Assembly (NCBI GenBank): GCA_944359015.1
Contig: CALVSK010000007.1
Location: 1-35,586 of the forward strand
DNA length: 35,586 nt
From: an uncultured Bacilli bacterium
GTDB lineage: Bacteria; Bacillota_I; Bacilli_A; RF39; UBA660
Direction: 5' to 3'
Part shown: positions 16,971 to 35,582 of the stretch, piece by piece
Position numbering within the stretch: the stretch's first letter is position 1
Layout: each line of letters starts with the position of its first letter
Notes under the pieces: generated by a model
Told to the model about the DNA's origin: nothing
Database searches by the model: none
What the model saw: only the letters and a program-made list of their open reading frames with translations
Made by a program: the position numbers and the translations under genes

Positions 16971-16984
16971 TGAACTATCTTTTT
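16954..16984. terminator. Bidirectional terminator between PBP1A and noc
   Basis: AAAAAGATAG and CTATCTTTTT form a 9 to 10-bp stem with an 11-base loop containing the PBP stop codon; the noc stop codon begins in the other arm. Flanking A and T runs give U tracts in both directions, so it can end both convergent genes. Confidence 0.8.
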
Positions 16985-18245
16985 ATATCTTATCTTTTTT
17001 TATTTTGATATTTATATGATATTCTGTTGGTAAATTAATTTCCTCAACTACTACTTTGTCTTTGTCTAAATTTAAATTTCTAATTGTTTTTATTACTTCA
17101 TCCAAATAGTCATTATTCATTATTTTTTCATTATTAGTATTTGTTGGTATTATAAAATCATCTAACATTTCTATATTGTCTATTTTACTTAATAAATCTG
17201 TTGGTTTTTGAATATTTTCTTTTTCTTCTTTTTTAGGCTCCAATGGTTTTATCACTTCATCAAAATTCATATTTGCTGCTTCACTTTCTAAAAAGTTGAA
17301 AAATTTATTTGTCATTTTTTCAGGTGTTATATTTGTATTCATATTTTCATTTAAATTCAATATTTCTTCTTTAGGCTCTTTTAATCCCTTTTGTTCATTT
17401 ATTGGATTTATATCTACAGAATTGTTTATTATGTTGCTTATATTTGGGATACTTTCTATAATTGGTAAATCACTAAAATCTTCTTGTGGTTCTTTTAATC
17501 CTTTTTCCTCATTTGCCAAATCTTCTAATTCTTGTTGATTTATCTGTGTATTTAATTTATTAGTTACATTTGCTATGAATTCATTTATATTACTAGCTCC
17601 ATTACCGGTTGTAGTATCTTCTTCACTCGCTGGCATTATTTTTTTTATTTCATCTTCTAATTGTTTTACTGTTAATCTCTCATTTATTATTTTAGTTAAT
17701 AATACTTTTTGCATTTCTTTATCTTTTACTTTTAACAATGACCTAGCGTGTCTTTCTGATATTTTTTCTTGAATTACTGCTTGTTGTACTGATTCATCTA
17801 ATGTTAGTAATCTTAATTTATTAGAAATATTTGATTGTGATAATCCCATTTTTTTCGCTAAATCTTCTTGCGTCATATATCCTTTATCTAATAATGCTTG
17901 ATATGATTTTGCCTCTTCAATTGCACTTAAGTTTTTTCTTTGTACATTCTCTACAATTGCCACTTGAGCACTATCTTTATCACTTAAATTTGAAATTATT
18001 GCAGGAACTGATACTAATCCTGCCATTTTCGCTGCTTTATATCTTCTTTCACCAGCTATAATTTCATATTTATCATTTTTTCTTCTTAATACTAAAGGTT
18101 GAATTATACCATGTTGCTTTATTGATAATGCTAAATCATTTAATGATGCATCATCAAAAGCCAATCGTGGTTGAAAACGATTGGGTATTATATCTTCTAT
18201 GGGAACTTGTAATATTTTTTCCTCTAATTGTGTATTATTGTTCAC
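16983..18245 (-). CDS. noc: Noc-type ParB-family nucleoid occlusion protein with a large insertion
   Basis: A 420-residue ParB-family CTPase. Residues 11-100 are the N-terminal domain with the CTP-binding GERRYKAA (65-72) and ENVQRKNLS (99-107); residues 110-200 hold the HTH with GLSQSNISNKLRLLTL and KISERHARSLL. IPNRFQPR, NKLRLL and ISERHAR follow B. subtilis Noc rather than Spo0J, as does the position next to rsmG. Residues 205-375 are an Asn/Glu-rich insertion with a repeated element (NEEKGLKEPQE at 245, NEQKGLKEPKE at 283). The last 45 residues (LDEVIKTIRNLNL... EYHINIKIKK) match the Noc C-terminal dimerisation end. The N-terminal membrane-targeting helix of Noc is absent. Start GTG (18243-18245) with AAAGGG upstream. 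Noc blocks septation over the nucleoid. Confidence 0.85.
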   Translation of the reverse strand: MNNNTQLEEKILQVPIEDIIPNRFQPRLAFDDASLNDLALSIKQHGIIQPLVLRRKNDKYEIIAGERRYKAAKMAGLVSVPAIISNLSDKDSAQVAIVENVQRKNLSAIEEAKSYQALLDKGYMTQEDLAKKMGLSQSNISNKLRLLTLDESVQQAVIQEKISERHARSLLKVKDKEMQKVLLTKIINERLTVKQLEDEIKKIMPASEEDTTTGNGASNINEFIANVTNKLNTQINQQELEDLANEEKGLKEPQEDFSDLPIIESIPNISNIINNSVDINPINEQKGLKEPKEEILNLNENMNTNITPEKMTNKFFNFLESEAANMNFDEVIKPLEPKKEEKENIQKPTDLLSKIDNIEMLDDFIIPTNTNNEKIMNNDYLDEVIKTIRNLNLDKDKVVVEEINLPTEYHINIKIKKDKI

Positions 18246-20860: not shown

Positions 20861-22213
20861 CTACTTTCCTAAACAAAAGTTACTAAATATGTTATCAACT
20901 AGTTCTTCTTGGTATGTATCTCCTATAATTTGTCCTAAATATTCCCATGCACTTTTTAAATCTATTTCTATTATATCTACTGGCATTTGTCCTTCTAAAC
21001 TTTTTAAAGAATTTGTTAGACTTTTTTTCGCTTTTTTTACTAAATCTATTTGTCTTAAATTTGTTAAATAGCTCATATCTTTGCTAATTATATTATCTAA
21101 TTTTAATTTATTTTTTATTGCTTCTTTTAATTCATCTAATCCATTTGGAGCAATTGTATTGCCAATTATTATTTCCTGGGAAATATTTTTTGGTATAACT
21201 ATTTTTTGTTCTAAATCTGACTTATTTATAAATATAATTAATTTTTCTGAATTGTATTTTCCCAATAATTCCAGGTCTTCTTCAGTTAATTTTTCATTAT
21301 TGTTTGCAACAAAAATTACAATATCTGCTAATTTTGCTATATCTTTACTTTTATTTACTCCTATTTTTTCAACTTCATCTTCCGTTTCTCTAATTCCCGC
21401 TGTATCTATAATATTTATTGCTACACTATTTATTGAAATTGTTCCTTCAACTATATCCCTAGTTGTTCCTGGAATATTAGTTACAATTGCCTTTTCTTCA
21501 TCTAATAAATGATTTAATATACTACTTTTTCCTACATTAGGTCGCCCTATTATTGCAACATTTATTCCATTTTTTATTATTCTTCCATTTTTGGCTCCAT
21601 CAAGAAGTTTATCTAATTCAATATTGATTTCTTTTAAATATTTATCCATTAATTCTTTGGTTACTTGCAATTCATCTTGATATTCTGGATAATCAATATT
21701 TACTTCTATATTTGCCAGTATTTTTACTATTTTTTCTCTTATACTTCTGATTTTTTTAGTTAAAATTCCATCTACATTATTTATTGCTAGTGTCCTTGCA
21801 GCATCTGTTTTTGCTATAATTAAATCATTTACAGATTCTGCTTCAAGTAAATTTATTCGTCCATTTAAAAATGCTCTTTTTGTAAATTCTCCTGGCTCTG
21901 CAAGTCTACATCCATTTTCTAGTAGTATTTCTAATACTTTATTTGTTGTAGATATTCCCCCATGACAATTTATCTCTACTATATCTTCTGTTGTGTATGT
22001 TTTTGGTCCTTTCATTAGCATTATCAAAACTTCATCAATTGTTTCTTCTTGTTTTTTTATGTGTCCATAATGGATGGTATGTGTTTCTTTTTCAGTTAAA
22101 GTACCATCAAATATGCTATCTACTATTTTTATTGCATCAGGTCCAGTAACACGAACTATTGATATTGCTCCAATACCTAATGATGTTGATATTGCACATA
22201 TTGTATCTTCCAT
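20861..22213 (-). CDS. mnmE: tRNA modification GTPase MnmE
   Basis: A 450-residue potassium-activated GTPase, partner of MnmG. The N-terminal tetrahydrofolate-binding domain (about 1-118) includes DTICAISTSLGIGAISIVR and the conserved NCHGG and EPGEFTKRAFLNGR. The G domain lies within the helical domain: G1 GRPNVGKSS (223-231), G2/G3 TTRDIVEG and DTAGIRE, G4 NKSD. The C-terminal FCLGK with Cys447 is the family end motif. The start at 22213 has GGAAG 10 bases upstream; an earlier in-frame ATG at 22234 falls upstream of that site and is rejected. It lies 8 bases before mnmG. Confidence 0.98.
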   Translation of the reverse strand: MEDTICAISTSLGIGAISIVRVTGPDAIKIVDSIFDGTLTEKETHTIHYGHIKKQEETIDEVLIMLMKGPKTYTTEDIVEINCHGGISTTNKVLEILLENGCRLAEPGEFTKRAFLNGRINLLEAESVNDLIIAKTDAARTLAINNVDGILTKKIRSIREKIVKILANIEVNIDYPEYQDELQVTKELMDKYLKEINIELDKLLDGAKNGRIIKNGINVAIIGRPNVGKSSILNHLLDEEKAIVTNIPGTTRDIVEGTISINSVAINIIDTAGIRETEDEVEKIGVNKSKDIAKLADIVIFVANNNEKLTEEDLELLGKYNSEKLIIFINKSDLEQKIVIPKNISQEIIIGNTIAPNGLDELKEAIKNKLKLDNIISKDMSYLTNLRQIDLVKKAKKSLTNSLKSLEGQMPVDIIEIDLKSAWEYLGQIIGDTYQEELVDNIFSNFCLGK

Positions 22214-22335: not shown

Positions 22336-23463
22336 TCAAAATCTATCTGGTACAGAAGAAGAGTTATAAGTATATGTTCCTTCATACAACAATTCATCAC
22401 AACTAGTGTATGCATTTATAGGATGACCAAACATATCCGAATGTATATAATAAAAGTTTCCGCTTACACAACCAATTTTCTCCTTATTTGTATTATAATC
22501 ACTTTCTGTCCATTGAGCTATAGACATTCCATTTTCAAAATAATAATTATATGCAGTTCCTGTGTATGTATCTTTAATTGAAAATATTAGTATTCCTTTA
22601 TCAGTTGTAGCACTTATGTTTTTGGTACCAGATGAGTATCCAGCACTATCTTTTACATATACTTTAAAATTATAAGTTGTCTCAGCACTTAAACCACTAA
22701 ATGTATAACTACTACTTGTACTACTTACATAACTACTACCATTATCTTTGGAATAATAATATGTTGCTACATTATTTGTTCCACCACTTGCTGTTACATT
22801 TAAGGTTATACTATCTGCTGTTATATTACTTGTTGTTACATTTGTTACACTTGGATTCACATAAGCGTTTGTAGTTACCGCTGTTTCATATATATTTGAT
22901 GTATATCCTAAACTATCTTCAACATATACTTTTATTTTATATTCTAAATTTGGTGTTAATCCACTAAATGTATATGTGTTACTTGTACTATTTACATAAC
23001 TGCTGCCATCATTATTTGAATAATAATATTTTACTATGTCATTATTTCCTTTTGTTGCATCTACTGTTAAACTAATACTATTATATGTTTTACTTACACT
23101 TATTTCACTTATTGTTGGTACAGCATATTTATCAAAATAAACATAACATTTGTCGGAAGTATTTGTTTGCATTATTACTCTTTTTGTTTCTTCATTCCAA
23201 GAAAGTGTTCCACCATTTTCACATTTAGATAATCTTTCATTAAATATATATCCGGAACTTGGCCAAGTTGTATCTGTTGAAGTTTGGTATTCCCCGCTTC
23301 CTACTTCTGTTTCATAGAGCATACTTATCGCATTTGATGATAAAAATCTTTCTTTTTTTTCATTTTTTATTATTTTGTTAGTTTTATCATTTGCTTGTAT
23401 AAACATTGAAAATATACCACATAATAATAAAGCAATAATTAGTATTTTTTTTCTTCTTTTCAT
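22336..23463 (-). CDS. Secreted two-domain fibronectin type III protein
   Basis: A 375-residue exported protein. A basic start (MKRRKK) and hydrophobic segment (about 7-25) act as signal or anchor. Residues about 40-115 form a Cys-containing domain (KCENGGTLSW, TSDKCYVYF). Two FN3 repeats follow (about 118-197 and 205-287); they are recent duplicates, sharing IVKYYYSNNDGSSYV and VATYYYSKDNGSSYV, and NTYTFSGL and SSYTFSGL. A C-terminal Cys pair domain (IGCVSGNFYYI, YTSCDELLYEG) ends the protein. No sortase signal is visible. It is probably a surface adhesin or binding protein; function unproven. The start at 23463 follows GGAGAAGTATT. It sits between mnmE and khpB, which are normally neighbours, and is divergent from an XRE regulator with operators over its promoter. 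Confidence 0.8.
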   Translation of the reverse strand: MKRRKKILIIALLLCGIFSMFIQANDKTNKIIKNEKKERFLSSNAISMLYETEVGSGEYQTSTDTTWPSSGYIFNERLSKCENGGTLSWNEETKRVIMQTNTSDKCYVYFDKYAVPTISEISVSKTYNSISLTVDATKGNNDIVKYYYSNNDGSSYVNSTSNTYTFSGLTPNLEYKIKVYVEDSLGYTSNIYETAVTTNAYVNPSVTNVTTSNITADSITLNVTASGGTNNVATYYYSKDNGSSYVSSTSSSYTFSGLSAETTYNFKVYVKDSAGYSSGTKNISATTDKGILIFSIKDTYTGTAYNYYFENGMSIAQWTESDYNTNKEKIGCVSGNFYYIHSDMFGHPINAYTSCDELLYEGTYTYNSSSVPDRF

Positions 23464-23485
23464 AATACTTCTCCACATCTATTTT

Positions 23486-26199: not shown

Positions 26200-26399
26200 T
26201 TATCAACATATTTTGTGGATTGTGGATAATTTGTTGATAACTTGTCTTTTTTATCCACAAAATTAACAACAACTTATTAACATACGTGTGGATAATTTGT
26301 TAATAAGTTATTATGTTTTTTTTATTTTTGTTAATTGTGTTGATAATGTTTTTTTTGTCGAATTTTGGCGCTTTTTTGTGTGTATAACTTTGTGGATAT
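26200..26399. other. Replication origin oriC, DnaA-box cluster upstream of dnaA
   Basis: Three perfect DnaA boxes: TGTGGATAA at 26221-26229 and 26287-26295, and TTATCCACA at 26251-26259 in the other direction. Near-matches: TTATCAACA 26200-26208, TGTGGATTG 26214-26222, TGTTGATAA 26232-26240 and 26338-26346, TGTGTATAA 26379-26387, TGTGGATAT 26391-26399. The region is a 413-base gap between rpmH and dnaA, extremely AT-rich with T runs suited to unwinding. Box density plus the rpmH-dnaA position identify the origin. A separate cluster follows dnaA. Confidence 0.92.
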
Positions 26400-26482: not shown

Positions 26483-27835
26483 TTGAAAACAGATGAAATT
26501 TTTTCCAGATTTTTAAACGATATTCAATCACAAGTTAGTCAAAATGCTTATACCATATGGTTTTCAAAACTTGAGCTTTTATCAATTGTTAATAATGTTG
26601 TAACAATAAAAGTTCCTATGGAAATCCACAAACAAATGCTTAGTGAAACTTATAATGATATAATTGATGCCTCTTTCTTTTCTTTAACTGGCATTAATTA
26701 TACTTTTAAATATATTACTGAAGATGAGGTTGAGACATTTACTCAACCAGAAATTGAAGAAAAGCAAGTTGTTAAAGAAATTCCTTGGAATACTAACTTA
26801 AATCCCAAATTTACCTTTGATAGTTTTATTGTTGGAAGTACTAATCGACTTGCTTTTGTAGCTGCTAGAGCTGTTGCAGAAGCTCCTGGAACTATTCATA
26901 ATCCTTTATTTATTTATGGTAGAAGTGGTTTAGGAAAAACCCATTTAATGCAAGCAATAGGTAATTACATTACTGAACATAGTAATAAAAAGGTACTTTA
27001 TACTACAAGTAATGAGTTTATGACTGAATTTACTGGAATTGCAACAATAGACAAGGGTAGTAGTAATATTAATTATGCCAATGAATTTAAAAATAAATAT
27101 AGAAATGTAGATGTTTTAATTATTGATGATATACAGTTTTTAGTGGGTGCTGAAAGAACTCAACAAGAATTTTTTCATACATTTAATGCCCTTCATCAAG
27201 CAAATAAACAAATTATTATTAGTAGTGATAAAAGTCCAGATGACTTAAAAAAGATTGAGGAACGTCTTAGAAGTAGATTTATGTGGGGTTTGCCTGTTGA
27301 TATTTATCCACCAGATTTTAGTTTAAGATGTGAAATTATAAAAGCAAAAATTAAAAATACTAGTATTGAAAATAAATTAACAGATGATGCACTAGATTAT
27401 ATTGCTAATTCTTGTGCTAACGATGTTAGACATATAGAAGGTACAATCAATCGACTCCTTGCTTATTCTGCTATGATGGTTCCTGATAAAATAACATTAG
27501 ATTTTGCTAATGAAGCCTTAAAAGATTATGTTACTACTAATGTATTTATCAACAATTCTATTGCATCAATACAAAATGCAGTTGCTGAATACTTTAAAAT
27601 ATCGGTTGATGATTTAAAAAGTAAAAGAAGAACTAATAGTGTTGTTAGGCCTCGACATATCGCTATGTACTTATGTCGAGAGGAAACTGATGAAAATTTA
27701 ATGAAAATTGGTTTAGAATTTGGAGGAAGAGATCATTCTACTGTATCTACTGCTATTGATAAAATTAAAGAGGAATTAGAAACAAATGATAACTTGAATA
27801 ATATGTTGAAAGAAATAAAAAATAAGTTACAATAA
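26483..27835 (+). CDS. dnaA: Chromosomal replication initiator DnaA
   Basis: A 450-residue AAA+ initiator. Domain I (1-80) recruits helicase; a short linker (81-105); AAA+ domain III with Walker A GRSGLGKT (146-153), Walker B VLIIDDIQFL (211-220) and arginine finger region RLRSRFMWGL; domain IV from about residue 340 with the DNA-binding signature FGGRDHSTVSTAIDKI. It binds the boxes on both sides of its own gene. Translation starts at TTG (26483-26485) preceded by GGGGTGAGG. DnaA boxes in the upstream gap imply autoregulation. Sequence TTTAAAATGGTTTAAAATG just upstream may carry the promoter but no clear hexamer pair is visible. Confidence 0.98.
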   Translation: MKTDEIFSRFLNDIQSQVSQNAYTIWFSKLELLSIVNNVVTIKVPMEIHKQMLSETYNDIIDASFFSLTGINYTFKYITEDEVETFTQPEIEEKQVVKEIPWNTNLNPKFTFDSFIVGSTNRLAFVAARAVAEAPGTIHNPLFIYGRSGLGKTHLMQAIGNYITEHSNKKVLYTTSNEFMTEFTGIATIDKGSSNINYANEFKNKYRNVDVLIIDDIQFLVGAERTQQEFFHTFNALHQANKQIIISSDKSPDDLKKIEERLRSRFMWGLPVDIYPPDFSLRCEIIKAKIKNTSIENKLTDDALDYIANSCANDVRHIEGTINRLLAYSAMMVPDKITLDFANEALKDYVTTNVFINNSIASIQNAVAEYFKISVDDLKSKRRTNSVVRPRHIAMYLCREETDENLMKIGLEFGGRDHSTVSTAIDKIKEELETNDNLNNMLKEIKNKLQ

Positions 27836-27913
27836 TGTGGATAAATTTTTATTTTATTTGTCGAATATAAGCCAATAAAATATGTTATAATATAGTTATC
27901 AACATTATCAACA
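27836..27913. other. Second DnaA-box cluster between dnaA and dnaN
   Basis: A perfect TGTGGATAA (27836-27844) starts at the base after the dnaA stop codon, and two tandem near-boxes TTATCAACA occupy 27896-27904 and 27905-27913 with no gap. Between and after them the DNA is almost pure A/T. Together with the cluster upstream of dnaA this looks like a bipartite origin of the B. subtilis type, where the unwinding site lies on the dnaN side. Confidence 0.7.
27883..27891 (+). promoter_or_regulatory. dnaN promoter, extended -10
   Basis: TGTTATAAT is a perfect extended -10; no -35 hexamer is visible 17 bases upstream. The leader to dnaN would be about 70 bases and would contain the tandem DnaA near-boxes. 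Confidence 0.6.
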
Positions 27914-32865: not shown

Positions 32866-35313
32866 ATGGATAAAATAGTTCAAAATAATATAGTTGATGA
32901 AGTAAGTGATTCTTTTTTACAATATTCTATGAGTGTTATTGTTTCAAGAGCAATACCTGATTTAAGAGATGGTTTAAAACCTGTTCATAGAAGAATCCTT
33001 TATTCAATGTATGAATCAGGTTATACTCCTGATAAACAATATAAAAAATGTGCGAGAGTTGTTGGGGATGTTATGGGAAAATATCATCCTCACGGAGATT
33101 CTTCTATATATGAAGCTTTGGTTAGAATGGCTCAAGACTTTAGCTATCGTTATATGTTGATTGATGGTCATGGTAATTTCGGTAATATGGATGGTGATGG
33201 TCCAGCAGCTTATCGTTATACTGAATCCAGATTATCAAAAATATCACTTGAATTATTAAGAGATATTAATAAAAATACTGTTGATTTTGATGTAAACTTT
33301 GACGAATCTTTAGAAGAACCAAAGGTTTTACCAAGTAGATTTCCAAATATTTTAGTTAATGGAACTATGGGAATTGCTGTTGGTATGGCTACTAATATTC
33401 CACCACATAACTTAGGTGAAGTTATTGATGGTTGTATTGCTTATATTGACAATCCTGAAATTGACGTTGATGGTTTAATGAAGTATATTAAAGGACCTGA
33501 TTTTCCAACTGGTGCTATAATTTTGGGCAATTCTGGAATTAAAAAAGCTTATGAAACTGGTAAAGGTACAATTACTATCAGATGCAAGGCAGAAATTGAA
33601 GAAGATGGTAGTAAACATAGAATAGTAATTTCCGAAATACCTTATGGTGTAAATACTTTAGATTTGAAAAAAAGAATTGGTGAGTTAGTTCGTGATAAAA
33701 TTTTAGATGGTATTGCTGATTATCATGAAGAAACTAACTTGGAAAATGGTATTAAAATAGTCATTACATTAAAAAAAGATGCTAATGGCAGTGTTGTTCT
33801 AAATAATTTATATAAACATACTCAATTACAAACAAGTTTTGGTATAAATTTATTAATGCTTGATAATGGTACTCCTAAAACTTTAGGATTAAAAAGCATT
33901 ATTTCAAAGTATATAGATTTTCAAAGAGAAGTTATTATTAGAAGAACTCAATTTGAGTTAGAAAAAGCTGAAAAAAGAGTACATATTTTAGAAGGTTATA
34001 AAATTGCTTTAGATAATATAGATGAAGTAATTAAAATTATTAAAGAATCTAAGGCTGATAGTGATGCTAAAAATAAATTAATGTCTAGATTTGGTTTAAC
34101 GGAAATCCAAACGGATAATATACTAGAGTTAAAATTACGTCGTTTAACAGGCTTAGAAAGAGAAAAGATTGAAGATGAGTTAAACGCCTTGCATATAGAA
34201 ATAGACCGCTTACGGGGCATTTTAGCAGATAATAATAAGGTGTTAGCAATCATTAAAGAAGAAATGTTAGAAATTAAATCAAAATTTGGTGATGATAGAA
34301 GAACTACTATTGATATGACTGCAGTTGACTTTATTGAAGATGAGTCTTTAATTCCAGAGGAAAATATATTTGTGGTATTAACTCACAATGGCTATATAAA
34401 AAGGACTACTGTAGATACCTTTAAAGCTCAAAATCGGGGTGGTGTTGGAGTAAAAGGTATGGCTACAAATGATGAAGATTTTGTTGAACATATGCTTAAT
34501 TTATCAACACACGATTTCATATTATTCTTTACTAATAAAGGAAAAGTTTACAGGTTAAAAGGTTATGAAATTCCTGAATTTAGCAGACAATCTAAAGGAA
34601 TTCCGATTATAAATCTTTTACAAATTGAAAAAAATGAAAAAATTAATTCCGTAGTTAAGATTAACAAAAATGAAGAGTTTAAATATTTGTTGTTTGCTAC
34701 AAAGCAAGGAATTGTAAAAAGAACATTGATATCTGAATTTGAAAATATCAGGAATAGTGGAAAAATTTCTATAACTTTAAAAGATGAAGATGAACTTATA
34801 GATGTTAAAAAGACTAAAGGTAATAATTTGGTATTATTAGGTAGTAGCATTGGAAGAATGGTTAAATTTAACGAAGAAGAAATCAGAGTAATGGGTAGAA
34901 CTGCTAGCGGAGTTAGAGGCATTTCTTTGAATGAAGCAACTTGTATATGTTGTGAAATTGTTAATGAAGAAGATACAATATTACTTGTAACAGAAAAAGG
35001 ATACGGCAAGCAAACAAATGTTCGTGAATATAGACAAACTAAACGTGGTAGTAAAGGAGTAAAAGCTTTAAATATTACTGATAAAAATGGGAACTTAGTT
35101 TGTGTTAAAATAGTTGAAAATGATAAAGAACTTGTGATTATGACTGATTCGGGTATGACTATGAGGATGCCTTTAGAACAAATATCCGTTTTAGGTAGAG
35201 TTACTCAAGGATTAAGATTAATTAATTTAAAGGATAATCAAAGAGTTTCAACTATTAGTCTTGTAGATAAATGTTCCAATACTGAAGTAAACGTTGAAGA
35301 AGAAGCAAATTAA
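32866..35313 (+). CDS. gyrA: DNA gyrase subunit A
   Basis: An 815-residue gyrase A. The catalytic tyrosine is Tyr118 in [13 protein letters not shown]. The quinolone region reads [12 protein letters not shown] with Ser79 and Glu83 at the positions of E. coli Ser83 and Asp87, so no classical resistance change is present. The C-terminal half holds six beta-pinwheel blades that wrap DNA; the gyrA box, which separates gyrase from topoisomerase IV, is [10 protein letters not shown] (about residues 523-532). ATG start 9 bases after the gyrB stop with AGGAGGGTTTC. A terminator overlaps its stop codon and parS sites follow. Confidence 0.98.
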
Positions 35314-35337: not shown

Positions 35338-35353
35338 TGTTTCACGTGAAACA
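35338..35353. promoter_or_regulatory. parS centromere site 1
   Basis: TGTTTCACGTGAAACA, a perfect 16-base palindrome identical to the B. subtilis parS consensus (TGTTnCACGTGAAACA), the nucleation site for ParB. The symmetry extends to 22 bases (AAATG...CATTT). Confidence 0.95.
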
Positions 35354-35429
35354 TTTATTTTTTGAATATAATTATTTAATTTGCATAAAAATTTTTAAAA
35401 CATTTTAATAATAAAATTAATAACTTTAA

Positions 35430-35445
35430 TGTTTCACGTGAAACA
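35430..35445. promoter_or_regulatory. parS centromere site 2
   Basis: A second perfect TGTTTCACGTGAAACA, 92 bases from the first. A DnaA-like TGTTGATAA follows at 35447-35455. Confidence 0.95.
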
Positions 35446-35566
35446 TTGTTGATAACCTGTTTATACTTTTATATTTAAAATTATATTTTTAATTAAATAA
35501 TTTATTTACATTTTTATAGTATTGTTTTCGTTTTTTGTTGATATTATAAATTATAAAAATTCTTGA

Positions 35567-35582
35567 TGTTTCACGTGAAACA
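35567..35582. promoter_or_regulatory. parS centromere site 3
   Basis: A third perfect TGTTTCACGTGAAACA, 137 bases from the second and 4 bases from the right edge. The DNA from 35330 to the edge contains no gene that I can see apart from these sites; more copies may lie beyond the window. Confidence 0.95.

Follow-up and report, generated by a model that had tools for sequence, protein, structure and literature searches.

A parS array between gyrA and tadA as the very probable origin-proximal centromere of an uncultured Bacilli bacterium, with DnaA-box and Noc-type sites in the same gap

Clustered parS arrays are already known from Myxococcus, and DnaA at a centromere is already known from Caulobacter; papers on these and other related systems are cited below by their PMC identifiers. 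In Myxococcus xanthus, 22 parS sites are packed into about 3 kb at a distance of 4 kb from parAB, and the passages cited make no mention of a DnaA-box or Noc-site layer (PMC3899335). The locus described in this study resembles that array in having many near-identical 16-bp parS sites in one origin-side block, but it lies by gyrA, its parAB genes are on another contig, and layers of DnaA boxes and Noc sites are added. In Caulobacter, DnaA binds the parS/centromere region (Mera et al. 2014, via PMC6399470 and PMC6667618). Initiator sites at the parS region and a proposed link between replication and segregation are thus common to both cases, although here, in a distant phylum, the box, a candidate DnaA-binding site, recurs at many parS sites in a fixed orientation and 1-5 bp away. 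The parS2-rctA locus of Vibrio cholerae chromosome II (RctB/ParB2) likewise combines initiator and ParB sites (PMC6399470), but with another initiator and on a secondary chromosome.

Among the Bacilli, the origin region of B. subtilis has clusters of DnaA boxes that are close to oriC but not part of it (PMC5295017, PMC13220808), and Soj/ParA acts on DnaA in this species (PMC5295017); in contrast to these clusters, the boxes described below are set next to parS. The Noc-NBS system of B. subtilis and S. aureus (PMC4331003, PMC5540599, PMC8429893) is matched here by a ParB paralogue beside rsmG with the same Q/K/R residues and by the same palindrome; however, instead of dozens of sites there are 0 to 5 per genome near the origin, the room for the membrane helix is missing, and the linker is long. 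Our literature search, which left subscription papers mostly outside, found for Bacilli neither a parS-DnaA-box composite nor an NBS beside a parS array.

The window, that is the whole stretch of DNA analyzed (35,586 nucleotides), is the entire contig C7 of an assembly of 976,320 bases in 56 contigs that is 90% complete. The array is located at its right end:

32866..35313, plus strand: gyrA, left border of the array
35338..35353, no strand assigned: parS site 1, a perfect 16-bp palindrome
35430..35445, no strand assigned: parS site 2, a perfect match
35567..35582, no strand assigned: parS site 3, perfect, within the 77 bases common to the end of contig C8
35510..35586, no strand assigned: last 77 bases of the window, identical to the end of contig C8 in reverse complement

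An earlier note on this DNA claimed three identical perfect parS sites at 35338, 35430 and 35567, far from chance expectation, in gene-free DNA after gyrA and about 9 kb from oriC, and all of this holds. The sequence TGTTTCACGTGAAACA occurs exactly at these three positions, and allowing up to 3 mismatches adds no further match in the window; when the window was shuffled 100 times with its dinucleotides preserved, there were on average 0.19 matches at that threshold, and no shuffle contained three or more. No open reading frame of at least 60 aa lies past the gyrA end (35313) in the window, an Rfam search of the window gave no match, and a DnaA-box cluster at 26200-26391 stands ahead of the dnaA start at 26483.

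The array continues beyond the window, since C7 and C8 end in the same 77 bases, read in opposite orientation. The two contigs very probably join at this overlap, whose length suggests the k-mer overlap of the assembler. The joined gap from the gyrA stop to tadA comprises 1,071 bases (1.07 kb) with 16% GC. Its parS sites lie at offsets 25, 117, 254 and 379 from the gyrA stop, the fourth being on C8, 125 bases beyond the third; the five parS entries of the assembly therefore represent four distinct sites, as site 3 belongs to the bases shared by C7 and C8. Further on, and likewise on C8, the gap contains Noc-type sites at offset 609 (perfect) and offset 897 (one mismatch) and a small SRP RNA gene. 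It is followed by what we take to be tadA, dnaX and recR, named from their translations and from the B. subtilis gene order. C8 also carries a T-box leader on the minus strand (L008 9042-9223). The extension of the sequence suggested earlier thus brings the array to four sites, and the suggested genome-wide search (up to 2 mismatches, in the 90%-complete assembly) found no parS outside the gyrA-tadA gap: the sites are not scattered, and all four belong to one array.

Two other origins of the array were considered and rejected. Site 3 lies in the contig overlap and might reflect an assembly artefact, but the sequence that holds sites 1 and 2 is unique, and whole arrays of relatives are contained within contigs. 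Recent tandem duplication in this genome is also not the source, because the stretches between the parS sites are unlike each other (best z 1.9 in six comparisons). No clear period was detected when helical phasing of parS spacing was examined with 102 spacings and five periods (p 0.15 at 10.5 bp and 0.018 at 11.0 bp).

The arrangement was compared in 35 relatives of the same family, with assemblies 67-100% complete; relatives found through GyrA are mostly metagenome bins. At up to 2 mismatches, parS-like sites were found behind gyrA in all 33 genomes with an uncut gyrA end, including the present one, although in G017, G031 and G033 the sites in the gap appear only at 2 mismatches; the gap counts leave out G015 and G018, whose assemblies lack gyrA, and G022, in which gyrA is cut. 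Of the 26 genomes of the genus that have parS at up to one mismatch and whose gyrA end can be read, 25 have every such parS inside the gap (G000 being taken after merging of its contig overlap), the exception being G020 with three of four. The array is present in the gyrA-tadA gap in all seven genera of the family sampled, the complete gap being readable in part of them. In other families of the class, judged from eight loci with 3 kb of context, parS sites are located elsewhere, or near gyrA or holB-ricT. The array is interrupted by contig ends in G010, G030, G031, G032, G033 and G035, and in G030 the second half of the array is found beside tadA on another contig; short-read assemblies therefore undercount parS. 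Tandem duplication with homogenised repeats did occur in G017 and perhaps in G007, G030, G033 and G034. The G017 gap (L148) holds 16 altered parS, 15 of which have the asymmetric sequence TGTTCCACGTGTAACA; together they form an array of about 2.4 kb that is homogenised and resembles a satellite.

The proteins expected to act on such an array are encoded in the genome. Absence of ParB had been named as a refutation of the centromere; parA and parB, in this order, are present on contig C44, separate from the array, and the SMC encoded on C20 exceeds its cut-off by 922 bits. The parS-reading residue of ParB, at position 173, is Arg (in an SR pair of the recognition helix), position numbers for ParB/Noc specificity being those of PMC7383237; this reading of ParB covered 28 relatives, with Noc obtained instead from the loci of G017 and G018. 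Two genes downstream of parAB on C44, a transposase-like open reading frame that looks IS110-like was noticed by eye (L010 4830-5933). The parAB and noc genes are on separate contigs here and on one contig in G033.

With three copies of the TGTTTCACGTGAAACA palindrome, oriC about 9 kb off, and parA together with a parB encoding Arg173, the identity of the sites as parS is near certain. We have hardly any doubt that the array is the origin-proximal parS centromere of this chromosome, and the dedicated intergenic centromere by oriC proposed in the earlier note remains the best reading, its layout being kept across the family. That ParB-CTP forms clamps at parS, that ParA drives movement and that SMC is loaded there is established. 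The parS sites of the gyrA-tadA gap very probably constitute a single origin-proximal centromere, with the three sites of the window as its first part. ParB would load at parS as a CTP-driven clamp and slide into the AT-rich neighbourhood, ParA would move ParB, and ParB would load SMC, these actions being inferred from the ParABS literature. DnaA bound beside parS would either couple the start of replication to the action of ParB/ParA or be titrated there, and Noc would be a second, origin-restricted clamp, not a genome-wide occlusion factor. Taken as a whole, an origin-proximal centromere that is probably also engaged by DnaA and Noc is a likely explanation of the data.

The Noc part of this explanation depends on a protein and a site near the origin:

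16983..18245, minus strand: Noc-like protein of 420 aa, a paralogue of ParB encoded beside rsmG
21170..21185, no strand assigned: NBS with one mismatch, inside mnmE, conserved in relatives

The NBS 16-mer TATTTCCCGGGAAATA is the target of Noc, and its core agrees with PMC7383237 and PMC8429893. At up to 2 mismatches the assembly contains three NBS, two in the gyrA-tadA gap and one in mnmE, none of them more than about 15 kb from the array; the distribution over most of the chromosome except ter that characterizes Noc sites was not observed, the three sites all being near the origin. Between mnmE and jag there is a fibronectin type III protein (22336-23478), unusual in the origin gene order. 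The 36 family genomes have 0 to 5 NBS each (up to one mismatch), as do the 13 family genomes of a second sample, G000 and G016 being common to both. Where the context could be read, NBS lie in the gyrA-tadA gap, around the dnaX 3' end and within trmN6 (in one subgroup), in mnmE, or in rsmG, and one section of the genus has its NBS outside the gap; left unplaced were two of the four NBS of G009, a single one of G025 and several of G031 and G033. In a class-wide draw of 118 genomes, NBS were found in 12 of 13 family genomes versus 9 of 105 others; this sample seemingly includes no Noc-bearing Bacillaceae with dozens of NBS, and the comparison figures are from papers. Although mnmE and rsmG are unrelated, their NBS (21170-21185 of the window; L189, L192, L195, L196) encode one and the same peptide, ISREI, through the rare codons TCC CGG, and in mnmE of G017 the NBS is in another reading frame, which argues for selection on the NBS DNA itself. 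At the end of contig C24 of G033 (L161), a 66-bp unit is repeated three times, each copy with one perfect NBS and one parS-like site, and a contig end of G095 has four NBS about 58 bp apart.

The Noc-like protein can be aligned to Noc chains of known structure (7nfu_A, E 4.6e-61), although it is below the NCBI Noc cut-off (276.4 vs 315 bits). Its NBS-reading residues are Q, K, T and R, with T replacing K at 184; all 35 Noc-like proteins keep Q173, K and R201, as read by script in 34 of them and by eye in G035 (the Noc of G023 is not among them). The Noc-like proteins thus have the combination of Q173, K at 179 or 184, and R201, and Lys at 179 alone suffices according to PMC7383237. Noc has two N-terminal helices (PMC8429893). 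Counted from the first possible start, only 17-24 residues precede NRFQPR in 33 of 35 proteins, versus 38 in 7nfu_A (G032 and G035 have 39 and 36); these two helices, and with them the room for the N-terminal amphipathic membrane helix, are therefore missing from the 33. Noc-like proteins of the family range from 342 to 716 aa, with a long and variable linker and a conserved C-terminal segment. A linker motif, P/T-N-K/R-FFN-x-LE...AAN, is kept genus-wide; it is amphipathic by its moment, but two other linker segments score equal or higher, and that the membrane helix has moved into the linker is a guess from sequence. A second kept motif, IEMLDDF.IP, occurs beside FFNFLE..AAN.

That Noc acts mainly at the origin region would be, judged from these site counts, an evenly balanced proposition. 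The competing view is that Noc serves in nucleoid occlusion in the standard way, its remaining sites having diverged beyond the reach of a 16-mer search. The incompleteness of the assemblies and a search at 1-2 mismatches, which misses weak sites, both leave space for it, and B. subtilis has about 70 and S. aureus 41 Noc loci (PMC4331003, PMC5540599). On the other hand, both family samples are limited to a handful of sites per genome, those that could be placed are near gyrA or mnmE/rsmG, and 33 of the 35 proteins have no room for the membrane helix, so that a standard role is possible but somewhat unlikely.

The DnaA boxes of the window are found both at oriC and beside parS:

26483..27835, plus strand: dnaA
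26200..26399, no strand assigned: part of oriC upstream of dnaA, with TTATCCACA and TTATCAACA DnaA boxes
27836..27913, no strand assigned: DnaA boxes between dnaA and dnaN, one TTATCCACA and two TTATCAACA
35447..35455, minus strand: DnaA-box-like TTATCAACA, 1 bp from parS site 2, with its 3' end towards parS
from 35584: one-mismatch box after parS site 3, cut by the window end

The oriC of this genome has TTATCAACA three times before and twice after dnaA, and TTATCCACA three times before and once after it. Across the genus, 20 oriC regions were compared (the stretch from G016, the 21st, had no dnaA and was left out), and TTATCAACA is the commonest box, 78 versus 43 copies of TTATCCACA. This 9-mer is close to TTATCCACA and used at oriC in the lineage, G009 and one other genome having none or one; the oriC of G009 lacks TTATCAACA although boxes adjoin the parS sites of its array.

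Exact TTATCAACA occurs 46 times in 31 gyrA-tadA gaps (32.0 kb, some of them cut by contig ends), whereas shuffled sequences gave a mean of 1.7 and a maximum of 6. All 46 are in a subset of genomes labelled clade A. At most 8 bp separate 29 of the 46 boxes from a parS, versus 8.5 by random placement restricted to the parS-bearing span (maximum 17 in 2,000 trials), while 17, about a third, do not adjoin parS. At up to one mismatch, a box lies 1-5 bp from 49 of 108 parS in clade A, compared with 0 of 43 in other genomes of the genus and 0 of 17 in other genera (0 of 60), a split that is only descriptive because clade A, which includes G009 and also G022 without data, was chosen after the box locations had been seen. 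The gap between parS and box is 1 bp in 16 cases, 2 bp in 3, 3 bp in 13, 4 bp in 10 and 5 bp in 7. The CAACA end is directed towards parS in all 49, although these cases are not independent, most being from related genomes. The box is on the gyrA-far side of parS in 46 of them; the other three, all in G009, are on the gyrA side and represent the same composite on the other strand, since parS is palindromic. The present genome has a box at two of its four parS (exact at site 2, one mismatch at site 3), so that the box near site 2, earlier suggested as a link to DnaA, proves to belong to a recurrent arrangement.

Two of the 17 clade-A genomes with data, G003 and G028, have no parS-adjoining box; because of this absence and that at the 60 other parS, the box is not essential for centromere action in the family. 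A quick GyrA tree, with SH-aLRT support only, shows at least three changes of the box trait, and G009 groups with genomes lacking it, apart from the main group; this suggests two or more origins of the arrangement, or else several losses. On balance we favor, with some reserve, a functional role of the boxes, and DnaA probably acts at the array, as judged from the arrangement of the sites.

The boxes could form a DnaA-titration cluster that merely shares the gap and sets initiation timing, ParB being unrelated or only displacing DnaA by sliding. Their location about 9 kb from oriC fits this, as does the third of the exact boxes away from parS, which titration allows; moreover, six box clusters outside oriC delay initiation in B. 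subtilis (PMC5295017, PMC13220808). However, titration alone does not call for a spacing of 1-5 bp from parS in one orientation, and we regard it as unlikely. Still less probable is that the flanking motif is an extension of the site read by ParB or an unknown protein, not a DnaA box: parS flanks are indeed biased (of 135 sites, 97% have A at -1 and 98% have T at +1) and the oriC of G009 is without this box type, but a rigid extension of a ParB site would not show a gap that differs between 1 and 5 bp, and oriC regions in the lineage have this 9-mer as their main DnaA box. Finally, an ordinary parS cluster with boxes and NBS as chance or leftover sequence in AT-rich DNA, although such clusters are common near oriC in bacteria (PMC7333895, PMC3899335) and many relatives have no boxes, is very improbable in view of the excess of boxes over shuffles, the placement test, their single orientation, and two NBS of a very rare 16-mer sharing the gap and kept there in relatives.

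Returning to the centromere engaged by DnaA and Noc, its most specific version is a composite in which DnaA, bound in one orientation 1-5 bp from parS, would gate loading or release of the ParB clamp, while Noc would serve as an origin-only clamp. We consider this version in its entirety doubtful. Under it, gating of ParB by DnaA would time segregation by initiation, and Noc would operate without the N-terminal membrane helix or chromosome-wide sites, possibly with PNKFFNFLE in its linker as a membrane or partner motif.

How bacteria couple the start of replication to segregation is an old question, for which Caulobacter provides the main known case of DnaA at parS. The natural variation in this family, with boxes in a single orientation by some parS sites only, offers a set of templates for the effect of DnaA on ParB loading. 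The Noc side raises the question of what role a nucleoid-occlusion protein has with a handful of sites beside the centromere. Overall, one short stretch of DNA may tie together the copying, separation and positioning of the chromosome.
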